NCBI GenBank assembly: GCA_030625775.1
Contig: DAOUQC010000046.1
Location: 1 to 39,216, forward strand
Source: Verrucomicrobiota bacterium
GTDB lineage: Bacteria > Verrucomicrobiota > Verrucomicrobiia > Verrucomicrobiales > DEV007
Reading direction: 5' to 3'
Length of the DNA stretch: 39,216 nucleotides
Shown here one piece after another: positions 8,332-31,995 of this stretch; positions within the stretch are counted from its first letter, which is position 1; each line of letters begins with the position of its first letter. Position numbers and translations under genes: made by a program. The notes below the pieces were generated by a model. It was given only the letters and a program-made list of their open reading frames with translations, was not told the origin of the DNA and did no database searches.

Positions 8332-8547
8332 AACTAGTGGGGTATAAGGGATTCCAGAAAGCGTATTTTACGCACAGATACAAACTCAAGCACATTATGA
8401 CGCTAAGGACAAGTCACGCGACGCCGCCTATTGAAAGTCTCGACATTACAGGGATTATTTCCGAATAATTGAAAGCTCCCCGTGGCAAGCCACGGAGAAT
8501 GCACTCGTCAAGTATTCACCTTAATTCCCCCTATCCAGACCATTCCC
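8332..8547. promoter_or_regulatory. Divergent intergenic region with a GC hairpin
   Basis: These 216 bp separate the starts of the two divergent oxidoreductase genes and must hold both promoters, though no convincing -35/-10 pair was identified. A palindrome CCGTGGC-AA-GCCACGG lies at 8480-8495, flanked by pairing CT/AG bases, and resembles a REP-type hairpin. It falls in the leader of the plus-strand gene, about 50 nt before its ATG. Confidence 0.5.
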
Positions 8548-9912
8548 ATGAGCGACCCAATCAACCTTACCAGCCCGTCCGACTCCGCTCTGCCCCGCCG
8601 CCGCTTTCTCGAAGGCTCCACCGCGGCCCTGGCTGCAAGCGCGTTTCCTGCAGGCGCCTTTGCCGCTGCGGGGAATGAAGAACTCAAGATTGCTCTCATC
8701 GGTTGCGGTGGTCGCGGAACTGGAGCCGCCTCGCAGGCGCTTCAAGCCGAGGACAATGTCAAGCTGTGGGCCATGGCCGATGCCTTTGAGCCCAATCTCG
8801 AAAAAAGCCGTCAGGTTCTGGAAAAAGGCGGCAAGATCAGTCGTTCACCGGACGGACTGGTTCTCAGAGATAAAGTCGACGTGCCACCGGAAAGACGTTT
8901 TGTCGGCCTCGATGCCTATCGCCAGGTCATGTCCATGGATGACATTGACGTCGTCATCCTGACCACCCCTCCCGGATTCCGCCCGATTCATTTTGAAGCG
9001 GCAATCAAAGCGGGTAAACACGTTTTCATGGAAAAACCGGTCGCCGTGGACGGACCCGGGGTGCGCAAAGTTCTCGCTGCCGCAAAAGAAGCCAAAGCGA
9101 AAAATCTAAAGGTGGGCGTTGGTCTTAACCGTCGACACAGCCCCCTGCACAACGACGCGATGAAACGCATTCACGATGGCGGCATCGGCGATGTTCATTC
9201 CATCCGCCTTTACAACTGCCGATCCGGAGTGGGTAAGTACCACAAACGACTTCCATCGGAAACCGAATTGGAATACCAGGTCGGCAACTGGTACTACTTC
9301 ACCTGGTTGAGCGGCGATTTTATCGTCGAACAAAGTGTTCACGACTACGATCTCGCCCTGTGGATCATGAATGAAGAAACTCCGGTTTCCTGTCAGGGAG
9401 TTGGTGGTCGACTAGTGAGAACCGGAGCGGATTACGGTCACATCTATGACCATTTTTACGTCGAATACAAATACGCCAACGGTGCAAGAATTTACACCGA
9501 ACACCGTCACATGCCAAAATGCTGGGGGCAATTCGGCGCCGAAGCCGCAGGCTCGAAAGGACAGGCCGGCATTATCTCCAAACAACGCGCCTACATCCAA
9601 TTGAACGGCGAACTCGAACCATCGTGGCGTGAAAGGGAATCGGGGAACTCTTACCAGATCGAACATGATAATTTGTTCAAAGCGATCAGAAAAGACCTGC
9701 CGCACAACGAAGCACAACGTGGAGCCCACGCCAGCTTGCTCGCCATCATGGGACGCATGGCCGCTTACACTGGACAACAACTCACTTGGGATGATGCGCT
9801 CGCTTCTGAAATCAATATCGTAACCGATGCGGAAACCTGGGACGGCAAACCTACCATCCTGCCTGATGCCGACGGAAGATATCCTGTGGCCATGCCGGGA
9901 CGGAAATCTTAA
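8548..9912 (+). CDS. Tat-exported Gfo/Idh/MocA family oxidoreductase (second, divergent)
   Basis: 454 residues from the ATG at 8548, chosen because it places a Tat motif (LPRRRFLEGSTAALAASAF) at the N-terminus; the frame is open further upstream without a signal. The Rossmann domain shows IALIGCGGRGTGAASQAL near 50, then VVILTTPPGFRP and MEKPVAVDGPG. Extra residues in the Rossmann half (RDKVDVPPERRFVG) distinguish it from the 6994 gene. The C-terminal domain includes GDFIVEQSVHDYDLALW. Predicted to act on a sugar-type substrate outside the cytoplasm. A heptamer array begins directly after its TAA, and the sulfatase gene starts 56 bp later, so the two are probably co-transcribed. Confidence 0.9.
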   Translation: MSDPINLTSPSDSALPRRRFLEGSTAALAASAFPAGAFAAAGNEELKIALIGCGGRGTGAASQALQAEDNVKLWAMADAFEPNLEKSRQVLEKGGKISRSPDGLVLRDKVDVPPERRFVGLDAYRQVMSMDDIDVVILTTPPGFRPIHFEAAIKAGKHVFMEKPVAVDGPGVRKVLAAAKEAKAKNLKVGVGLNRRHSPLHNDAMKRIHDGGIGDVHSIRLYNCRSGVGKYHKRLPSETELEYQVGNWYYFTWLSGDFIVEQSVHDYDLALWIMNEETPVSCQGVGGRLVRTGADYGHIYDHFYVEYKYANGARIYTEHRHMPKCWGQFGAEAAGSKGQAGIISKQRAYIQLNGELEPSWRERESGNSYQIEHDNLFKAIRKDLPHNEAQRGAHASLLAIMGRMAAYTGQQLTWDDALASEINIVTDAETWDGKPTILPDADGRYPVAMPGRKS

Positions 9913-9961
9913 CTACCTCCTACCTCCTACCTCCTACCTCCTACCTCCTACCTCCTACCTC
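9913..9961 (+). repeat. Seven perfect CTACCTC heptamers between oxidoreductase and sulfatase genes
   Basis: The array begins at the first base after the oxidoreductase stop codon and ends 7 nt before the sulfatase ATG (9969). In the mRNA each unit contains ACCUCC, the core of the anti-Shine-Dalgarno end of 16S rRNA. On the opposite strand the unit is GGAGGTA, one base from the GGAGATA units at 181-201. No Shine-Dalgarno sequence is visible for the sulfatase start. Confidence 0.9.
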
Positions 9962-9968
9962 TTAACAA

Positions 9969-11669
9969 ATGATCAAACTCCTCCTCACCACTCTCTGCTG
10001 CCTGTACCTGACGGTTCTTTCCGGCAACGCTGCTCCCGATCGCCCCAACATTATCATCATGATGGCGGATGACATGGGTTTTTCTGATATCGGCTGTTAC
10101 GGCAGTGAGATCCAGACTCCCAACCTCGACCAACTCGCATCCGGCGGTTTGCGCTTCACTCAATTCTACAACACTGCCCGTTGCTGCCCGACCCGTGCCA
10201 GCCTGCTCACCGGACTCTATCCTCATCAGGCAGGCATCGGTCACATGATGAATGACAAGGGACTCGATGGTTACCGTGGTGATCTCAATCGAAATTGCGT
10301 CACCATCGCCGAAGTTTTAAAAACCGCCGGTTACGGCACATACATGAGCGGCAAATGGCATGTCACCAAACAAACCAACCCGGATGGCTCGAAAGACAAC
10401 TGGCCGCGGCAACGTGGCTTCGATCGCTTTTTCGGCACTATTCACGGTGCAGGAAGCTTCTTCGATCCCAACAGCCTGACTGTCGACAATACCCAGGTCA
10501 CTCCGAGTGAAGTCAGCGATGATTTTTACTACACCGAACAGATCGCCAGGATGACATCAAAATTCATCCGTGAGCACGTAGCGAAAAAACCGGATGAACC
10601 CTTCTTCATCTACAACGCATTCACCTCTCCTCACTGGCCGATGCATGCACGGGAAAAAGACATCGCCAAATACAAAGGACGTTATTCCAAAGGCTGGGAT
10701 ACCCTGCGCAAAGAACGACATCAGAAAATGATTGAGATGGGTATCGTCAACGATCAATGGGCCTTGAGCCCACGTGACCCGAAAGCACTGCAATGGGAGA
10801 ATCTCGATAACAAAGACAAAACGTGGTTCGAGCGGCGCATGGAAGTTTATGCCGCAATGATTGATAACATGGATCAGGGCATTGGCAAAATTGTCGCGAC
10901 GCTGAAGGAAACCAATCAGTTCGACAATACACTGATTCTTTTTCTCGCGGACAACGGCGGCTGCGCTGAAGAATACGGCAACCGCCGCAATAGCACCGCG
11001 ATACCGAAGGAAAAACTAGAGCCGATGAAAGCCGGTGAGTTGCAGACCAAGATGCAACCGGACAAAACCCGCGACGGCTGGAAGGTGCGCACCGGACACG
11101 GCGTCATGCCCGGACCCGCTGACACTTATATGTCCTACGGATTGGAATGGGCCAACAGCAGCAACACCCCCTTCCGCGAATACAAACACTGGGTTCACGA
11201 AGGAGGGATCTCAACTCCACTCATCGCCCATTGGCCAGCAAAAATTTCCCGCAACGGCGATCTGGATTCCACTCCCAGCCACCTGATCGACTTGATGGCT
11301 ACCTGTGTTGACATCAGCAAGGCAAATTATCCGAAGACATTCCACCAGAATCAAAACATCAAAGCCATGGAAGGCCGCAGCCTGCTCCCTGCCTTTGCTG
11401 GAAACGGTAACCGCATCCAACGCGAAGCCCTCTACTGGGAACACGAAGGCAACCGAGCCGTGCGAGCGGGAAACTGGAAACTCGTCGCCAAAGGAAGAAA
11501 GGGAGCATGGGAGCTTTATGATCTCAGCAGGGACCGAACCGAGCTGAAAAATCTCTCCAGTGCCAAACCTGAAAAGGTAAAACAAATGGCGGGAATGTGG
11601 GAAACCTATGCGAAGCGCGCCAATGTCATCCCCTGGCCAGCACAAAAAAAGAAAGCGAAAAAAAAATAA
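9969..11669 (+). CDS. Secreted sulfatase (S1 family arylsulfatase-type)
   Basis: 566 residues with a Sec signal peptide (LLLTTLCCLYLTVLSGNAA). Sulfatase core: metal-binding DD at 34-35 in MMADDMGFSDIGCYG and the C-x-P-x-R signature C72-C-P-T-R76, with C72 expected to become formylglycine. GKWHVT near 129, an IDNMDQGIGKIV segment and an LADNGGCAEE motif holding a further metal ligand are also visible. The Lys/Ala-rich end (AQKKKAKKK) is low complexity. It hydrolyses sulfate esters, probably from algal or host glycans, outside the cytoplasm. It follows an exported oxidoreductase in the same direction, consistent with a glycan-degradation pair. The substrate subfamily cannot be assigned by eye. 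Confidence 0.93.
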   Translation: MIKLLLTTLCCLYLTVLSGNAAPDRPNIIIMMADDMGFSDIGCYGSEIQTPNLDQLASGGLRFTQFYNTARCCPTRASLLTGLYPHQAGIGHMMNDKGLDGYRGDLNRNCVTIAEVLKTAGYGTYMSGKWHVTKQTNPDGSKDNWPRQRGFDRFFGTIHGAGSFFDPNSLTVDNTQVTPSEVSDDFYYTEQIARMTSKFIREHVAKKPDEPFFIYNAFTSPHWPMHAREKDIAKYKGRYSKGWDTLRKERHQKMIEMGIVNDQWALSPRDPKALQWENLDNKDKTWFERRMEVYAAMIDNMDQGIGKIVATLKETNQFDNTLILFLADNGGCAEEYGNRRNSTAIPKEKLEPMKAGELQTKMQPDKTRDGWKVRTGHGVMPGPADTYMSYGLEWANSSNTPFREYKHWVHEGGISTPLIAHWPAKISRNGDLDSTPSHLIDLMATCVDISKANYPKTFHQNQNIKAMEGRSLLPAFAGNGNRIQREALYWEHEGNRAVRAGNWKLVAKGRKGAWELYDLSRDRTELKNLSSAKPEKVKQMAGMWETYAKRANVIPWPAQKKKAKKK

Positions 11670-18021: not shown

Positions 18022-18717
18022 TCAGCATTGCCCTCCCTCCCGCTTCCTTTCAAGGTGACGCTTCAGGGCTTTCAAGTAATCCATCTTAACACCTTTCATA
18101 ACCCGGGATTGATTGCTTTCATGAGCACGACGATAGATGAGCGGAGCTTCAAGAGTGTGGGATTGCAGCCCTGCCAATTCCGCCCGGCCACACCATTCGA
18201 GAAACTCGCCAGCTGTCAGACTTTCTTCCATCTCTCCAGTCAGCCCCCAGACGTCAGCCCTCCCCAGGAAGCTACTGACATTGACTGCCGGGCGGATCTT
18301 GGCAGGATCCACCTGGGAATTGATCAATGTGGAACGCAGGATTTCCTCATGAAATCCAATTTCGTGGGAAAAAATGATCGCCATATCAGGATTTTCAGCC
18401 AAATAATCCAGCTGCTTCTGCAACTTGTCGGGGTGCCAGAAATCATCACCATCGAGAAATGCAAAAAAATCACCGTCAGCATGCTGCATTCCATAATTCC
18501 TCGCTGCGCTTGCCCCTTTTTTCCCCTGCCGCAATATCGTGACGTTTGGAAGATACCTTTCAGCAATCCCTGCGCAAGGATCCGCGCGATCCTCATCAAC
18601 AATCACAATGGGATTGATCGAGTATTCCGGAGCCAGTCGCTGATCCAAAACGCTCTCAATGGCATCGACAAAATGCGCCTCCCGATTCCAGCCGGTTATG
18701 ATGACGGTGGTCTTCAT
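18022..18717 (-). CDS. Family 2 glycosyltransferase (cassette gene 1)
   Basis: 231 residues from the ATG at 18717. GT-A fold: VIITGWNREAHFVDAIESVL at the N-terminus, IVIVDEDRADP, GASAARNYGMQHADGD near 80, and the metal-binding FLDGDDFWHPDKL. The C-terminus is short, with no membrane segment, so it is likely soluble or peripheral. It transfers a sugar from a nucleotide sugar to an unknown acceptor. It starts 13 bp after the HprK-like gene and is the last gene of the minus-strand arm. A second GT2 (20260) has the same DGDD/DADD-type layout, so the cassette carries two. Confidence 0.88.
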   Translation of the reverse strand: MKTTVIITGWNREAHFVDAIESVLDQRLAPEYSINPIVIVDEDRADPCAGIAERYLPNVTILRQGKKGASAARNYGMQHADGDFFAFLDGDDFWHPDKLQKQLDYLAENPDMAIIFSHEIGFHEEILRSTLINSQVDPAKIRPAVNVSSFLGRADVWGLTGEMEESLTAGEFLEWCGRAELAGLQSHTLEAPLIYRRAHESNQSRVMKGVKMDYLKALKRHLERKREGGQC

Positions 18718-18730
18718 TGAGCTTATAAAA

Positions 18731-19789
18731 CTACAGATGCTCGACAAAATCACGCTTTAAAAATTCCCTGAGCTTTGTGATCAAGTCGACCGGATCCCGT
18801 CCAAGATGCAATTCATACGCCGGGCAGGCTTTTACAAACGAAGTGATCAGTTGAAAGCTCTTCTTGCCTCCCCCGAACAGGGCTGCCAGAGTGCTCGGGG
18901 CGATATACTTCCAGGTTTGCAGGGGTGATTGGCAGGGAACGATACGGGATTTATTCTCATTGGTGATTCGCGGCAGCAGCACGGCTTTTAGAAAAACTCC
19001 CGGACCGCCTGCTGAATTTTTCAGATCAAGCAGAAAACTGGCTTTACCATCGTCCGTCTGGGTATGCTCCCCACCAGCAACCAGGTCATTCAGTTCAGCA
19101 TTGTGGGAAGGTAACATTCTTGCACTCCGGTAGAGGCTATGCAGTTGAACCGGCCCCTCTTCCGGCATTTCGGCGATACAGTAGTCATCGCTGATGTAAT
19201 CAAAGTCGGCCTGATGACAAAGCAGCGACGTTGTTGATTTTCCCGATCCCGAAGGTCCGGCAAAAACAATCCCTTTGCCATCCAGCGCGACCGCCCCTCC
19301 ATGAATCATCTGGGCCCCTTTCCGCACCAACCAGAGATTCATCAAGGTTCGCATAGGAGAGAACAATTCCCACAAAGGAATGGACGCATTGTCTGCAATC
19401 CAGGCATAACCCTCTCCCTTCTTAAAATCAAAGGTAGCCACCATTCCTGTATGGGGAACCGTAATGGTTTGAATACTCTCATCACACAGATGATCCACTT
19501 TTGATCCCCGGAAGGAAGGGGCCTCCCCCTGGGCGAATGGAGGAGGAATGGGGTGACTGCACCCTTCCCAGAAATAGAGAGTCATTTCCGGCTCAAGCAC
19601 ATAACCAATGTCATCTACCAAACGAAGATGCTCGAAAGCTGGAGTGTAAGTTTTTTCCAAAGCTTCTGACGCAAAGATAAAACGAAGACAGCGCCCAGCC
19701 ACGATGAAGGTCGCCGCGATGACATTTGTTTTCGACGCTTCACTCTGATACTGCTCAGCCGATCTATCGAAGTATTCCCGTGGAGTCAT
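18731..19789 (-). CDS. HprK-like P-loop kinase (cassette gene 2)
   Basis: 352 residues from the ATG at 19789. A GTG at 19807 overlapping the PqqD stop is an alternative start. The C-terminal half is HPr-kinase-like: GAQMIHGGAVALDGKG, the Walker A loop GPSGSGKSTT at about 178-187, then DYISDDYC. The N-terminal ~150 residues lack the HprK N-domain and match only the pattern of HprK-related kinases found beside PqqD-like proteins. True HPr kinase controls carbon metabolism and sits with ptsH; neither is present. In paeninodin-type lasso clusters related kinases phosphorylate the precursor peptide, so a peptide or sugar substrate is a reasonable inference here. Confidence 0.82.
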   Translation of the reverse strand: MTPREYFDRSAEQYQSEASKTNVIAATFIVAGRCLRFIFASEALEKTYTPAFEHLRLVDDIGYVLEPEMTLYFWEGCSHPIPPPFAQGEAPSFRGSKVDHLCDESIQTITVPHTGMVATFDFKKGEGYAWIADNASIPLWELFSPMRTLMNLWLVRKGAQMIHGGAVALDGKGIVFAGPSGSGKSTTSLLCHQADFDYISDDYCIAEMPEEGPVQLHSLYRSARMLPSHNAELNDLVAGGEHTQTDDGKASFLLDLKNSAGGPGVFLKAVLLPRITNENKSRIVPCQSPLQTWKYIAPSTLAALFGGGKKSFQLITSFVKACPAYELHLGRDPVDLITKLREFLKRDFVEHL

Positions 19790-19803
19790 TGCTGACAGAA
19801 TAT

Positions 19804-20214
19804 TCACGCTTCCACATGAGGCCATCCCCCGGCATCGACTTCATGAATGGGGTCTGCCAATAGCAGATCGCGCATATCATCAAATCGTTCGAAAGTCGGT
19901 TTCTCAAAGGCCTGGGCAATGCTAAGGCTTTCTTCACCCGTCGGCTTACTTTCTATAACTTCAGCCTTTTCGACAAGCCCTTCCTCACCCAGGGATTCCA
20001 GAAATGTTTCAACCAAAACGACCGTTCCAGTATCACTCCCTTCAAATAGGGACGCAATATCTTCTGCTCCACCCACTGACGCAGCAAGAGCCTCCCAAAT
20101 CCGCGCGGCACTGTCTCGAAGACTGTAATACGCTCCCGTGTCGAAATGAATAGCAATCACTTCACCCTCAAGTGATTCATGGGTAATTTTTGAGCCAATC
20201 TTATAAGTAGCCAT
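19804..20214 (-). CDS. PqqD-like RiPP-recognition protein with C-terminal tail (cassette gene 3)
   Basis: 136 residues from the ATG at 20214. Residues 1-80 have the PqqD/RRE winged-helix pattern (MATYKIGSKITHESLEGEVI, then DTGAYYSLRDSAARIWEAL), which in RiPP systems binds leader peptides. After a linker rich in Glu/Ser comes a tail at 104-136 (EKPTFERFDDMRDLLLADP, then IHEVDAGGWPHVEA). From memory, similar DM-DLLL-DPIH-V-GWP endings occur on other PqqD-like proteins; this needs a search. No pqqC or pqqE gene is near, so PQQ synthesis is not implied. The next gene follows within 14 bp. Its start is 45 bp from that of the divergent glycosyltransferase. Confidence 0.82.
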   Translation of the reverse strand: MATYKIGSKITHESLEGEVIAIHFDTGAYYSLRDSAARIWEALAASVGGAEDIASLFEGSDTGTVVLVETFLESLGEEGLVEKAEVIESKPTGEESLSIAQAFEKPTFERFDDMRDLLLADPIHEVDAGGWPHVEA

Positions 20215-20259
20215 AAGCCTGTTGACCCTCACTCAGCTGGTCTATTGTGTCAAACACCC
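20215..20259. promoter_or_regulatory. Compact bidirectional promoter region of the cassette
   Basis: Only 45 bp separate the ATGs of the PqqD-like gene (minus) and the glycosyltransferase gene (plus). A TTGACA on the minus strand (20248-20253) and a TTGACC on the plus strand (20222-20227) face each other, and GTTGAC/GTCAAAC forms a small dyad. Neither has a convincing -10 at standard spacing. Promoters must overlap one another or the coding starts. Confidence 0.45.
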
Positions 20260-21009
20260 ATGAATCCGCTTACCATTTCTACCGTGATCCCAAACTTGAA
20301 TATGGGGAAATTCATTGCTTCCGCCCTTGAATCCATCGCCACACAATCCCGGCCTGTTGATGAGGTCATCGTGGTAGACAACCAATCGGCAGATAATTCA
20401 CTGGAAATCATCGAAACTTTTCGCCACCGCTTTCCCCGCTTTACGGTCCTTTCCCACGATGAGCGTAATCCTGCCGCAGTCAGGAATGTCGGCATCAGAG
20501 CTGCCCGCAGTGAGGCTATTGCTTTTCTTGATGCCGACGACCTCTGGCATCAAGAAAAAATGGCTATCCAGGCGACCCGCCTCGAATCCAATTCCCCTGT
20601 CGATGCCGTCGGCAGCCACATCTGCTTTTTTGACCAACAGCACCCGACCTTACCCTTACCCTTACCCTCGGAAAACGCACAAACCAAAACCTCAGTCGCA
20701 CCAAGCATCGAAAGTTTATTGATCCGCCGCTCCACACTTGAACAATTAGGATTTCTCAATGAAAAACTCCTCTACGGTGAAGACTGGGATCTCTATTTCC
20801 GGCTAAAAGACGAAAGCATTCCCTTTGTGATCCAAAAATATGTCTCGGTTTTTGCGCGGCGACACAGCGAGTCTATGATGGCAAACAAACACCCCCGCAT
20901 AGAGCAAGATGTGACCCGGGCCTTCATGCAGTCGATTTTGCGCCGACGCAAACTGGGACTGGGAGCCGAGGGATCAAAAGATTTCTCTGAATTTGAAGAA
21001 GCTATCTAA
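20260..21009 (+). CDS. Family 2 glycosyltransferase (cassette gene 4)
   Basis: 249 residues from the ATG at 20260. GT-A motifs: STVIPNLNMGKFIASALESI, VIVVDNQSADNS, NPAAVRNVGIRAARSEAIAF, the metal site FLDADDLWHQEKM near 95, and LLYGEDWDLYFRL near 170. No membrane helix. It contains a run of the hexamer CCTTAC (three units, 20648-20665) encoding LPLPLP in a surface-loop position. It is divergent from the PqqD-like gene, and the nucleotidyltransferase follows 43 bp after its stop. Likely glycosylates a cell-surface polymer or peptide; the acceptor is unknown. Confidence 0.88.
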   Translation: MNPLTISTVIPNLNMGKFIASALESIATQSRPVDEVIVVDNQSADNSLEIIETFRHRFPRFTVLSHDERNPAAVRNVGIRAARSEAIAFLDADDLWHQEKMAIQATRLESNSPVDAVGSHICFFDQQHPTLPLPLPSENAQTKTSVAPSIESLLIRRSTLEQLGFLNEKLLYGEDWDLYFRLKDESIPFVIQKYVSVFARRHSESMMANKHPRIEQDVTRAFMQSILRRRKLGLGAEGSKDFSEFEEAI

Positions 21010-21052
21010 GTCTGGAAACCTCGAACCATCGTGCCCTAGCAATTCAAATCAG

Positions 21053-22648
21053 ATGCCTCTCTCAAATTACTTCACCCCATCATCAACATGGCCTCGGGGC
21101 TGTTGGCCAGACAAAAGCCAACAACTCCTGCTCGCCGCTTGTTTGCTGGAAGATGACGATGCCAGTCTGACTGCATGGCAGACTTGGCAAGACAGCATTC
21201 CTCTGGATTTCGTCGATGGCACTTCCGCCCGGCTACTGCCTCTGCTGCATCGCCGGGTGAGCAGGATAGACAGTAAAGCCCCTGGGCTGAAAGATCTGGC
21301 CGGTGTGGTTCGCTACCACTGGGTTCATACTCAACTCATGATGCGGGATGCCTCTGCCATTTTGCGCCTGTTCAATGATGCCGGCATTGATACCATGTTG
21401 CTCAAAGGTGCCGCGCTCAATGCAAGCATCTACCCTTTAGGGCTTCGCCCGATGAAAGATATCGATATTGTCATCAGACCTGAGCAGACCGAAAAAGCCC
21501 TGTCGCTATTGAAAGACGAGGGATGGGAGCACGAATTCCCGCAACCCAAAAAAATGCGGGATTTATCCCATGCTTGTCACCTTACCAAAACAAGCAACCT
21601 CGATTTGCACTGGAATTTTTTCCATGGCAGCATCCTGACAAATGCACAAGTAAATGAGCTCTGGGATGCGAGCGAACCCATCCAGATTCTCGGCCAAACA
21701 AGCCGTGTCCTTTGCCCCTCGGATCAACTTCTTCACACCTGTGAACACGGGATGCGCTACGCCCCCTCACCTCCTTTCCGTTGGTTGGCCGATGCCCACC
21801 GGATAGTGACAAGCTTAAGCGAATCGATTGACTGGGATCGTTGCTGCCGACTTGGCATGGAACATGGCTTGCTCTATCCCCTGCTCAAAACCCTGCAGTA
21901 TCTGGAGCAAAACTTTCAAGTTATGCTACCGGAAAATACATGGAAAAAACTGACATCCTATCACATCCCGATGAGCAATCAGCTTGCTCATGAAACCCTT
22001 GCCAGGCGGACTCCCGGCCAGCACCCCTTCTGGCACGATTTGCCCGCTAATCTACTGAGCTATCGAAGATTAAAAAAGATAAATCCACACCTTTCCCTGA
22101 GTGAGTTTCTAAAAGTAATCAATTCCATCGATATGCCGATCAGGGATTTGTTGATGCTCCTCCTGAAGCAAAACACAGTCGCTCTGAAAAAGCAGATCGA
22201 ACAAAAAATCGAAGCCCTTGACCTCTACCTATCCGACGAACCCACTCGAACGATCTCAATGACGACCATTTCCCAAGAGCTGGTGGAAGGATTTCATTCA
22301 CGTGAGACCCATGAAGGGAAGACCTTCCGCTGGTCATTCCCCGATGCCACCCTCCGAATAAACCTACCTGTCGCCAATTACGAAACCACACTCCACATCC
22401 TGCCCAACCGCGATTGTCGCAATATTGACCTTAATTTGAAATTCAACCGCTCGAATCTGAATTGGAAAGCGATCAATGCAAACAGCGTCAGCTTCCGTAT
22501 CAAGAAAACCATGTTCGTTGACTACCACCAGCAACGAATGACACTGCAATGCGCCCCCTGGTTACTTCCTGATTCTGATCCACGGCAGCTCGGCCTGCCT
22601 CTGCTTCAGCTGAAATTCAGAAAGCTCAACGATCCCCTGCAGAATTGA
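21053..22648 (+). CDS. PF14907-type nucleotidyltransferase with C-terminal beta-rich module (cassette gene 5)
   Basis: 531 residues from the ATG at 21053. Residues ~100-330 match the uncharacterised nucleotidyltransferase family: MLLKGAALNASIYPLG, then MKDIDIVIRPEQTEKALSLL with its metal-binding DID motif, NLDLHWNFF and LLHTCEHG. Such proteins accompany HprK-like kinases and PqqD-like proteins in several peptide clusters. Residues ~400-531 form a separate module (VEGFHSRETHEGKTFRWSFP, then regular beta-strand periodicity) that looks like a carbohydrate-type beta-sandwich; I recall similar FRW-containing modules in surface-polysaccharide proteins but cannot confirm. The substrate is unknown. 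It ends convergently against the NtrC-like gene. Confidence 0.82.
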   Translation: MPLSNYFTPSSTWPRGCWPDKSQQLLLAACLLEDDDASLTAWQTWQDSIPLDFVDGTSARLLPLLHRRVSRIDSKAPGLKDLAGVVRYHWVHTQLMMRDASAILRLFNDAGIDTMLLKGAALNASIYPLGLRPMKDIDIVIRPEQTEKALSLLKDEGWEHEFPQPKKMRDLSHACHLTKTSNLDLHWNFFHGSILTNAQVNELWDASEPIQILGQTSRVLCPSDQLLHTCEHGMRYAPSPPFRWLADAHRIVTSLSESIDWDRCCRLGMEHGLLYPLLKTLQYLEQNFQVMLPENTWKKLTSYHIPMSNQLAHETLARRTPGQHPFWHDLPANLLSYRRLKKINPHLSLSEFLKVINSIDMPIRDLLMLLLKQNTVALKKQIEQKIEALDLYLSDEPTRTISMTTISQELVEGFHSRETHEGKTFRWSFPDATLRINLPVANYETTLHILPNRDCRNIDLNLKFNRSNLNWKAINANSVSFRIKKTMFVDYHQQRMTLQCAPWLLPDSDPRQLGLPLLQLKFRKLNDPLQN

Positions 22649-26506: not shown

Positions 26507-26637
26507 AAACTTCGGTAAATTCCTGCATCCCGGATGCCTCCGTCGTTGCACCAGATCACGCCCTCACCTAAGCTCACTTTACTTTTATGGCTGATAAAAT
26601 CGCACATAGAAAAATTTCTCACAAAGAGGTGAGTGGC

Positions 26638-28491
26638 ATGTCCTCGAAAGAGTACAGGTCTCACGCCAAGAATATATACCTGCGTTTACTCAGCTACGTC
26701 AAACCTTACAAAGCACGCTTTGCAGCGGGGGTGTTTTTCGGAGTGGTTTCAGGGCTTTTTTATTCCGTCCTCTTCCTGGTGATTCGGGTGGTATTCGACT
26801 TGGTATTGAACCCTCATTCAGACAAAGTCATCCGCCCCTTCGAAGGATTTAAATTCAAGTTCGGACAAGACATCGCCTTCACCCCTCCGGCTTTCATCAC
26901 CGAACACGACTGGATATTTACCGCCTTTGTCTGTGGTCTGGTTCCTTTTTTGATGCTGATCAAGGGCCTGCTCACCTATTTGCATATGTACTGCATGCTA
27001 TGGATAGGAAACAGAGTGCTATTCAAGCTTCGGGACGAATCATTTGGCAACCTGGTCAACCAACCTCTCAGTTTTTACAGCCATGCCCGACAAGGCGAGT
27101 TGATGCAAACCGTCTTCAACCAGACCCGCATGGCCTCTTCAGCCGGAACCGACCTCGCTTCAGCAATGATTAAACACCCTGTTTCAGTGCTTACTATTCT
27201 CGGCATGCTTCTGGTTACGAATCCCATATACACTATCGGTGCCGTAGTGGTTTTCCCTCTTTGTCTGCTTCCGGTTATATATATCAGCAGGAAAGTCCGC
27301 AAGGCCGGCGGAAAAGAGGAAGAAGAAGCCGGCATGCTCATGGTTACGATGCAGGAAGCCTTTTCAGGCATCAAGGTGGTCAAGGCCTATGGCCGGGAGG
27401 ATTTTGAACGCACGCGTTTTAACAAAGCCAGCCAGCGAATGCTGGACTTCATCATGCGCTGGCGAAAAGCGATGGAAATTGTCGGCCCCCTGGTTGAGAC
27501 AGTCGCCTCACTCGGCATTGCCGTTGGTTTGGTCTACGCAAAAATGACAGGCATGCCGACCCAGGATTTCCTAATCCTGAACTTCATGCTGATGGCGATG
27601 TACCCGCACGCCAAAGCACTTTCGCGCATTCAGGTGCAGCTCCAGAAATGCATGGTTGCTACATCGAAAGTTTTCGAAATTATCGATATGAAACCCGATG
27701 TTGCCGACGCACCGGATGCCATCAAGTTAACAAAACCCGAAGGAGCACTGATCTTCAATGATGTATCCTTCGCCTATGTGCCCGGCACCCCTGCCGTGGA
27801 AAATATTTCACTTACCTTTGAGCCAGGAAAATTCTACGCTCTGGTTGGGAAAAGTGGTTCTGGAAAATCAACCATGCTCTCCCTGATGATGCGCTTCTAC
27901 GATCCCACTTCCGGCAACATCACTATGGGAGACTCCGACATACGCAAATTCACCCAAAGCTCTCTGCGGGATCAAATGGGCCTCGTATTGCAGGAAACCT
28001 TCCTGTTCCATGATTCGATCTTCAACAACATCCGCTATGGACGTCTCAACGCCACTAAAGAGGAAGTGATCGAAGCCGCTAAAATGGCCCATGCCCATGA
28101 TTTCATCTTGGAAAAGGAGCAAGGTTACGACACGGTTTGCGGTGACAAAGGTGCCCAGCTTTCTGGCGGCCAGCAACAACGGATTTCCATCGCCCGCTCC
28201 ATCCTTCGCAATGCCCCTATCCTGCTGCTGGATGAAGCCATGTCTTCACTTGATTCGGAATCAGAAAAAAAAGTGCAGGATGCCATCGACAAACTCGAAA
28301 AAGGGAAAACCGTCATCGCCATTGCCCACCGTCTCTCCACTATCCTCAATGCCGATCAAATTATCGTCATGGATCAAGGCCGGATCGAAGCTGTCGGCAA
28401 ACACAAAGAACTGCTGGATAGGTCAGCAATCTATCAACACCTCTACAATTTGCAATTTCACAATCATCAGGAAAAAAATACCCCCTCTTAG
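26638..28491 (+). CDS. ABC exporter, fused permease and ATPase (MsbA-like)
   Basis: 617 residues from the ATG at 26638, chosen because AGAGGTGA lies about 6-8 nt upstream; an ATG at 26587 adds 17 residues but has no ribosome site. Residues ~15-330 form the six-helix exporter membrane domain (ARFAAGVFFGVVSGLFYSVLFLVI and others). The C-terminal ATPase has Walker A GKSGSGKST, Q-loop VLQETFLFHD, signature LSGGQQQR, Walker B PILLLDEAMSS and H-loop AIAHRLST. One half-transporter per gene implies a homodimer. Substrates in the MsbA group are lipids, drugs or peptides. It lacks a C39 peptidase domain. It lies 4 kb from the PqqD/HprK cassette, too far to assign as its exporter. Confidence 0.93.
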   Translation: MSSKEYRSHAKNIYLRLLSYVKPYKARFAAGVFFGVVSGLFYSVLFLVIRVVFDLVLNPHSDKVIRPFEGFKFKFGQDIAFTPPAFITEHDWIFTAFVCGLVPFLMLIKGLLTYLHMYCMLWIGNRVLFKLRDESFGNLVNQPLSFYSHARQGELMQTVFNQTRMASSAGTDLASAMIKHPVSVLTILGMLLVTNPIYTIGAVVVFPLCLLPVIYISRKVRKAGGKEEEEAGMLMVTMQEAFSGIKVVKAYGREDFERTRFNKASQRMLDFIMRWRKAMEIVGPLVETVASLGIAVGLVYAKMTGMPTQDFLILNFMLMAMYPHAKALSRIQVQLQKCMVATSKVFEIIDMKPDVADAPDAIKLTKPEGALIFNDVSFAYVPGTPAVENISLTFEPGKFYALVGKSGSGKSTMLSLMMRFYDPTSGNITMGDSDIRKFTQSSLRDQMGLVLQETFLFHDSIFNNIRYGRLNATKEEVIEAAKMAHAHDFILEKEQGYDTVCGDKGAQLSGGQQQRISIARSILRNAPILLLDEAMSSLDSESEKKVQDAIDKLEKGKTVIAIAHRLSTILNADQIIVMDQGRIEAVGKHKELLDRSAIYQHLYNLQFHNHQEKNTPS

Positions 28492-30910: not shown

Positions 30911-31951
30911 TCAAAGCCTTGCCGCTCGTAGCACCTCTTTTCTCAAATCCCGCAATACCCGTAATTCACCCCAATCTGCTGAGCGCATTTGGCGCCCCCC
31001 ATTAGTGCGACGACTACCGAAAAACTCCCGCTTCTGTTCAAAAAAGCCATCCACATAACTTTGCCCTCCCAACACTGCCCCATCACTGAAATACCTCACC
31101 CGGCACCGCAAAGCTTCTGCTAGAGACAGCTTGCCTCCCACTGCCCAGACTTCCTCAATCTGTTCCTGAGTGAATCCCCCCTTCCAACGACCTGTGCCAT
31201 CGACAGTCTCACCACCTAAGCGCTCCTCTCCCATTCCAAACAACAGACAACGGTATTCCGCCACCACAGTCCTCCATGCAACCCCTTGTTTACTCATCAC
31301 AGCAAAGGTCAGGGCCTGACGCGCTCCTTTCACTCCCGCCACCGCTGCCGCATAACTGCACCAACGGTAATCTGCCGGATCCTTCACCAAGCCTGCCCGG
31401 ATTGGATTCAAATCAATATAAGCTGCCACTGTCCGCACCGCATCACCGCTCTCCAGCAGCACACTTTTGAAACGCCCCTCCCACAAAGCGCCACGACGCT
31501 GATGGGTATTGTTATACGCCATCGTCATCTTCATTTTCAGTTCCTTCATGAACTTCGACAGATCAAACATCCGGTCTTTCACCCGTTCCACGATTTCACT
31601 GATCCCATCTGAATGTCCATTCTCCCGATACATTTTCACCTCACCCAACAGCTGATGAGTGCTCCACTCACTACGCAATACCTTCAGCCGTTTGATGTAA
31701 TCCTCATCCTTCCACCCATTCAAAGCACCCTCCTTATCCGGCACCTCCAGAAGTAAATGAAAATGATTTCCCATAAAACACCACGCCAACACCCGCAAAC
31801 CACTGAATTTCAACTGCTTGAGCAAGATAATACGAAAGACCTCCTTGTCCTCACCCCCAAACAATAACTCCTGCCCCGCCACCCGACTCACCACATGGTA
31901 ATAATTCGTCTCCCCCGCAGGTCCCAATAGAAATTTGCGCGTTTTTCTCAT
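30911..31951 (-). CDS. REP-associated tyrosine transposase (RAYT, IS200/IS605-like Y1)
   Basis: 346 residues from the ATG at 31951; a GTG at 31972 is an alternative. The HUH motif is HFH at 63-65 in CFMGNHFHLLLEV and the probable nucleophile is Tyr146 in KMTMAYNNTHQRRG, followed by LWEGRFKSVLL and YIDLNPIRAGLVKDP. The C-terminal ~120 residues carry a helix-turn-helix-like segment (SLAEALRCRVRYFSDGAVLG) seen in one RAYT group. Such single-copy enzymes cut and join palindromic REP sequences. Two REP-like boxes lie on its 5' side, one only about 45 bp from the start. The gene appears intact. Confidence 0.9.
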   Translation of the reverse strand: MRKTRKFLLGPAGETNYYHVVSRVAGQELLFGGEDKEVFRIILLKQLKFSGLRVLAWCFMGNHFHLLLEVPDKEGALNGWKDEDYIKRLKVLRSEWSTHQLLGEVKMYRENGHSDGISEIVERVKDRMFDLSKFMKELKMKMTMAYNNTHQRRGALWEGRFKSVLLESGDAVRTVAAYIDLNPIRAGLVKDPADYRWCSYAAAVAGVKGARQALTFAVMSKQGVAWRTVVAEYRCLLFGMGEERLGGETVDGTGRWKGGFTQEQIEEVWAVGGKLSLAEALRCRVRYFSDGAVLGGQSYVDGFFEQKREFFGSRRTNGGRQMRSADWGELRVLRDLRKEVLRAARL

Positions 31952-31995
31952 GGCCAAATTTATATCATCCACATTCCAAAGGCAAGAACAAATTT

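Follow-up and report, generated by a model that had tools for sequence, protein, structure and literature searches.

A widespread and apparently undescribed cassette in a Verrucomicrobiota bacterium combining a PqqD-like RRE with a leader-like tail, an HprK-like kinase, two GT2 glycosyltransferases and a PF14907 protein

RREs are a hallmark used in genome mining for RiPPs and are assumed to bind a separate precursor. The closest published gene set to the cassette described here is found in the LPP clusters (Popov et al. 2026, PMC13381572), whose core peptides are highly variable and whose NTP transferase showed no activity in the host used for testing. A relative of the HprK-like kinase phosphorylates peptide Ser, and in LPPs the phosphates are on core Ser3 (PMC13381572). 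Discrete lasso RREs bind leaders of the form [Y/W]xxPx[L/V/I/A/F/Y] (PMC13381572), and PsmN (pseudomycoidin) adds hexoses to phosphorylated Ser. Both LPP and paeninodin clusters also occur in capsule loci.

The window, i.e. the whole stretch of DNA analysed (39,216 nt of contig DAOUQC010000046.1 from a Verrucomicrobiota bacterium, DEV007), contains a divergent cassette of five genes, which an earlier note on this DNA had delineated and which is confirmed as real by open frames and Pfam matches. The minus-strand arm comprises the genes for GT2 glycosyltransferase A (18022..18753; likely ATG start at 18717; PF00535, E 6.7e-25), an HprK-like kinase (18731..19825; likely ATG start at 19789), and a PqqD-like RRE adaptor with a C-terminal tail (19804..20232; likely ATG start at 20214). 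The plus-strand arm comprises the genes for GT2 glycosyltransferase B (20245..21009; likely ATG start at 20260; PF00535, E 1.1e-25) and a PF14907 nucleotidyltransferase-like protein, NTP5 (20993..22648; likely ATG start at 21053; PF14907, 141 bits). The two PF00535 matches bear out the view that glycosyltransferases have been added to the set. The ATG starts at 20214 (PqqD) and 20260 (GT2-B) are better supported, as judged from the sequence and from a related locus (L008, see below), in which both GT2 proteins have counterparts. Measured from the ATG starts, the gaps are 13 and 14 bp in the minus arm, 43 bp in the plus arm, and 45 bp between the arms (20215..20259, unstranded). The shared promoter region previously placed here stands as a 45-bp gap, and since no sigma-70-like match was found inside it, the promoter itself is only presumptive. 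PADLOC gave no anti-phage defence match, and base composition (GC 50.2% vs. 50.9% for the window) was uninformative as to a horizontal origin. Elsewhere in the window, genes for a GFO/IDH/MocA oxidoreductase and then a sulfatase whose C-terminal domain is of the SGSH type (8482-11669) point to the use of sulfated polysaccharides, and an IS200-like (Y1_Tnp) transposase-type protein is encoded at 30911-31972. IS200-like proteins are often linked with REP elements.

A search of 75 genomes from the family found the kinase at E 0.001 in four, namely the window genome, G031, G026 and, weakly, G029. G031 carries the identical divergent five-gene set (L008; 50-65% identity to the window for the three proteins aligned), and G026 carries two divergent relatives (L009 and L010), each in a PqqD-HprK-GT2-NTP5 run. 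The flanks differ, with sugar epimerases in L008 and housekeeping genes in the window, and this difference and the patchy occurrence together suggest mobility. A first contig scan using the kinase alone as query gave no matches; a PqqD profile gave full-length matches in five further Verrucomicrobiota genomes of the 289 searched. When a collection of genomes representing 84,980 species was scanned with the pattern LLL[ALG]DPIH[ED], 256 stretches were obtained, 241 of which encode a relative of the tailed RRE; the best 80 are from Cyanobacteria, Nitrospirota, Chloroflexota, Acidobacteria, Planctomycetes, Proteobacteria, Bacteroidota, Bacillota, Actinomycetota, Verrucomicrobiota, and others. PqqD-HprK-GT2-NTP5 sets are present in other Verrucomicrobiota and in at least nine other phyla. 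Because the divergent order is the same in L008 and the sets recur in G026 and in other phyla, the gene set is not a product of chance. The earlier note had taken the five genes for one functional unit, which is supported by these loci, and had named a lack of co-occurrence in other genomes as grounds for abandoning that view; the homologues co-occur across phyla. One locus (L046:779-6344, in the 2.7-Mb genome G211) contains genes for HprK, tailed PqqD, two GT2 enzymes, and NTP5 in the same order as in the window. In one Chloroflexota group that has the tailed RRE, no HprK was detected, and in most cases neither NTP5 nor GT2 was. Five Chloroflexota loci (L071, L072, L079, L087, and L094) contain a tailed PqqD gene with neither HprK nor NTP5 detectable, and several of these genes adjoin genes for a different type of ABC transporter. 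A second system may thus be served by the tail.

Nearly all tailed RREs end in a variable linker followed by the consensus F/Y-xxPxLxKYTDMQDLLLLDPIHEVDExGWP. In the window protein, the peptide-binding RRE domain covers residues 8-90 (19963..20211, minus strand; Pfam 24-87) and adopts the winged-helix RRE fold, with a PF05402 (PqqD) score of 27.3 bits (cut-off, 23.4); its closest solved folds are those of TbiB1 and TfuB1, lasso RREs solved with leader peptides. The tail, FEKPTFERFDDMRDLLLADPIHEVDAGGWP (residues 109-138; 19819..19908, minus strand), includes the leader-like RRE-binding motif FxxPxF (residues 109-114; 19891..19908, minus strand) and the core LLLADPIHE (residues 123-131; 19840..19866, minus strand). 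It is conserved in 88 loci, and residues D119, L123, L124, D127, I129, and H130 are invariant in 59 sequences. The leader motif is present in 85 of the 88 tails although it lies outside the search pattern, the exact motif being absent from three Verrucomicrobiota tails. The mean top-residue frequency is 0.48 in the RRE, 0.19 in the linker, and 0.76 in the tail; among the scan hits, selection by the search pattern accounts for part of the LLLxDPIH conservation, and the tail still exceeds the RRE when the searched columns are removed (0.69 vs. 0.48). Judged by its sequence, the tail opens with a lasso-type leader motif of the kind bound by such RREs. AlphaFold2 (59 sequences) gave a confident RRE (pLDDT 90-97 over residues 11-90), a weak linker, a strand at 114-117 in a block of pLDDT 91, and a distal end of low confidence, suggesting that the leader-like motif would dock in cis on its own RRE and that the DPIH...GWP end would be left exposed; docking to a neighbouring molecule is equally possible.

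Searches of 388 Verrucomicrobiota genomes and of 30 carriers belonging to several phyla found no detached copy of the tail; the open frames that hold the tail hits are all 142 aa or longer. Small precursor genes sharing a leader, which the earlier note had suggested looking for, show no excess near tailed RREs (72 small motif-bearing candidates vs. 70, 70, and 77 for control motifs). Its statement that a separate precursor gene is absent agrees with this result, and what it missed is the precursor-like sequence fused to the PqqD-like C-terminus. A text search of open full texts for the string DPIHEVD found no paper. Two adjacent small ORFs with a repeated sequence (LESR..FAAAA.PHH) are located at L048:8559-9481, near tail-less PqqD, radical SAM-like, and HprK-like genes, and are possible separate precursors of another RRE system.

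Within 6.5 kb of the tailed RREs, genes for GT2, HprK, and NTP5 were found in 72, 71, and 60 of the 88 loci, respectively, and no B2-like or cyclase-like gene was found in any of them, whereas the 23 tail-less Verrucomicrobiota RRE loci contained GT2 in 1, HprK in 5, NTP5 in 10, B2-like genes in 7, and cyclase-like genes in 5. The Fisher p-values for tailed vs. tail-less loci (GT2, 4e-12; HprK, 2e-7; NTP5, 0.05; B2, 7e-6; and cyclase, 3e-4) are indicative only, since tail-less loci supplied the queries for B2 and cyclase, tailed loci supplied the profiles for kinase, GT2, and NTP5, and loci related by descent do not count as independent. About 25 loci, not including the window cassette, have a dedicated MsbA-type ABC exporter; the ABC transporter at 26587-28491 was rejected as such an exporter, as it scores like a generic MsbA (232 bits vs. 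roughly 520-870 for most dedicated ones).

The HprK-like kinase does not reach the cut-offs of Pfam or NCBIfam (Hpr_kinase_C, 16.5 bits; TIGR04355, 33.4 bits, and TIGR04352, 32.5 bits vs. 200) and is distant from classical HPr kinase (TIGR00679, 20.7 bits vs. 240). It keeps the catalytic motifs H175, the P-loop (G190..G193.G195 K196 S197), and D213-D214, all invariant in five relatives. In NTP5, residues R132, D136, D138, D184, and H186 (ATG numbering) are invariant or nearly so in 34 sequences, and the catalytic domain is similar to MenT1 and ANT(2''), with a weak similarity to the phosphosugar transferase FKRP. Its C-terminal β-sandwich (22250..22627, plus strand), as predicted by AlphaFold2, resembles the carbohydrate-binding modules CBM35, CBM36, and CBM61 in Foldseek with moderate confidence (E about 2e-3 to 5e-3). 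HprK and GT2 are fused in single genes in 14 loci. In two Bacteroidota loci (L084:14094-16691 and L089:7549-10068), HprK and two GT2 domains are combined in one protein, and the other 12 contain simpler fusions. These fusions are the strongest sign that the kinase and GT2 enzymes act together, and along with the predicted carbohydrate-module-like domain of NTP5 they support coupled phosphorylation and glycosylation.

With little more than even confidence, we propose that the cassette encodes a tailoring system in which the enzymes come together on a hub, an RRE adaptor that has a leader-like tail of its own. The F/YxxPxL segment of this tail would dock in the leader groove of its own RRE, and the docked RRE would display the conserved LLLxDPIHExDxxGWP end. 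The HprK-like kinase, providing phosphate, the GT2 enzymes, providing sugars, and the PF14907 enzyme, transferring a nucleotidyl, sugar or sugar-phosphate group, would assemble on this adaptor, and their putative joint product would be the phosphate-linked glycan. The acceptor would be the tail on display or else a molecule that the tail passes on, and in a share of the genomes the MsbA-type ABC exporter may export the product, for a presumed role at the cell surface. The product is probably a phosphate- and sugar-decorated molecule.

One specification, possible but rather doubtful, is a self-tethered, RiPP-like system in which precursor and recognition element form one protein and DPIHEVDxxGWP would be phosphorylated, glycosylated, and perhaps nucleotidylated. 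In favour of the tail as a substrate are the leader motif in cis and the missing separate precursor, as expected of a fused substrate. The tail contains no invariant Ser, Thr or Tyr, so no kinase acceptor can be named in it; a Thr/Ser at tail position -9 was rejected, being present in 73 of the 88 loci and replaced by Asp in the window. The same lack of an invariant hydroxyl residue favours the tail as a bait. In this sub-case of the proposed system, the tail would be a pseudosubstrate or docking peptide filling the groove of the RRE, and the kinase and glycosyltransferases that it recruits or gates would act on a separate acceptor such as a surface glycan, a lipid-linked sugar or a distant protein. 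This sub-case, against which the arguments for a fused substrate tell, is possible but rather doubtful. It would fit a distal peptide that is nearly invariant across phyla, most RiPP cores being variable. An invariant tail Asp occupies position 19 from the motif aromatic, where LPP precursors carry the phospho-accepting Ser3, as a mimic could, and this match is suggestive only.

It is improbable that the locus is an ordinary polysaccharide-modification cassette in which the HprK, PqqD, and PF14907 proteins are incidental neighbours. Such a cassette would agree with the epimerases in L008, with the GT4 enzymes, sulfotransferases, and methyltransferases in other loci, and with the capsule settings of LPP and paeninodin clusters, but not with the fixed co-occurrence in at least ten phyla, the HprK-GT2 fusions or a GT2 association that is specific to tailed RREs. 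An ordinary capsule locus had been considered in the earlier note; some loci do lie beside polysaccharide genes (L043/L127, with sugar-transferase-like and flippase-like neighbours, by reading only), and because many others lie away from such genes, this is not simply a capsule locus. A degenerate paeninodin-type lasso cluster that has lost its cyclase, protease, and precursor is very improbable, since none of the genes is damaged and all are conserved, the composition is found again in other phyla, and the genome lacks a PF13471 protease or SipW-type peptidase, even though the kinase and NTP5 are shared and the RRE scores best, if below the cut-off, against lasso PqqD models.

The proposed hub system has consequences for the search for RRE-dependent pathways. 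Widespread RREs bearing their own leader-like motif would have to be searched for by another logic and could account for some of the RRE clusters that appear to be without a precursor. HprK-like kinases and PF14907 enzymes, two groups with largely open roles, are now tied to glycosyltransferases via natural gene fusions, and one short peptide, DPIHEVDxxGWP, is named as a direct handle on function. If the tail is a self-tethered substrate, a conserved phosphoglycopeptide or carrier would be common to at least ten phyla.

The cassette shares with LPP clusters a discrete RRE (with PF05402 above the cut-off, the window RRE having an extra tail), an HprK-like kinase, and an NTP transferase, as well as a frequent location among glycosyltransferase or capsule genes and, in a share of relatives, an MsbA-like exporter. 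By analogy, it may work like LPP systems in combining these three components. It differs in having the leader-like motif on the RRE protein itself and GT2 genes within the set. It also lacks the SipW-like signal peptidase, the separate precursor, and the adjacent exporter, because of which it was not filed as LPP. The whole window genome, which is 96% complete, has no TIGR02228 match for the peptidase (SpI), no separate precursor with a YxxPxV leader was found near tailed RREs, whose tail is never detached, and no MsbA-like exporter adjoins the window cassette. Kinship with the paeninodin-type module, as asserted in the earlier note, is upheld by the PqqD-type RRE, HprK-like kinase, PF14907 enzyme, and F/YxxPxL motif shared with paeninodin/pseudomycoidin lasso clusters. 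Unlike those clusters, the cassette has a tail on the RRE and GT2 enzymes and no B2 protease, cyclase or precursor; the absence of lasso enzymes beside it was also rightly noted, there being no PF13471 match (B2 transglutaminase-like leader peptidase) in the window genome and PF00733 matches (Asn-synthase-like cyclase) solely on other contigs. The HPr-rel-A system (TIGR04352/TIGR04353) likewise pairs an HprK-related kinase with a PqqD-family protein, but the window kinase reaches 32.5 bits against a TIGR04352 cut-off of 200 and the PqqD-like protein of the window does not match TIGR04353. SynChlorMet (ScmC/ScmD) also combines HprK-like and PqqD-like proteins, whereas the window kinase scores 13.7 bits vs. 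125 and the cassette contains no radical SAM enzymes. The cassette is a real and widespread variant of these gene sets and is apparently undescribed.
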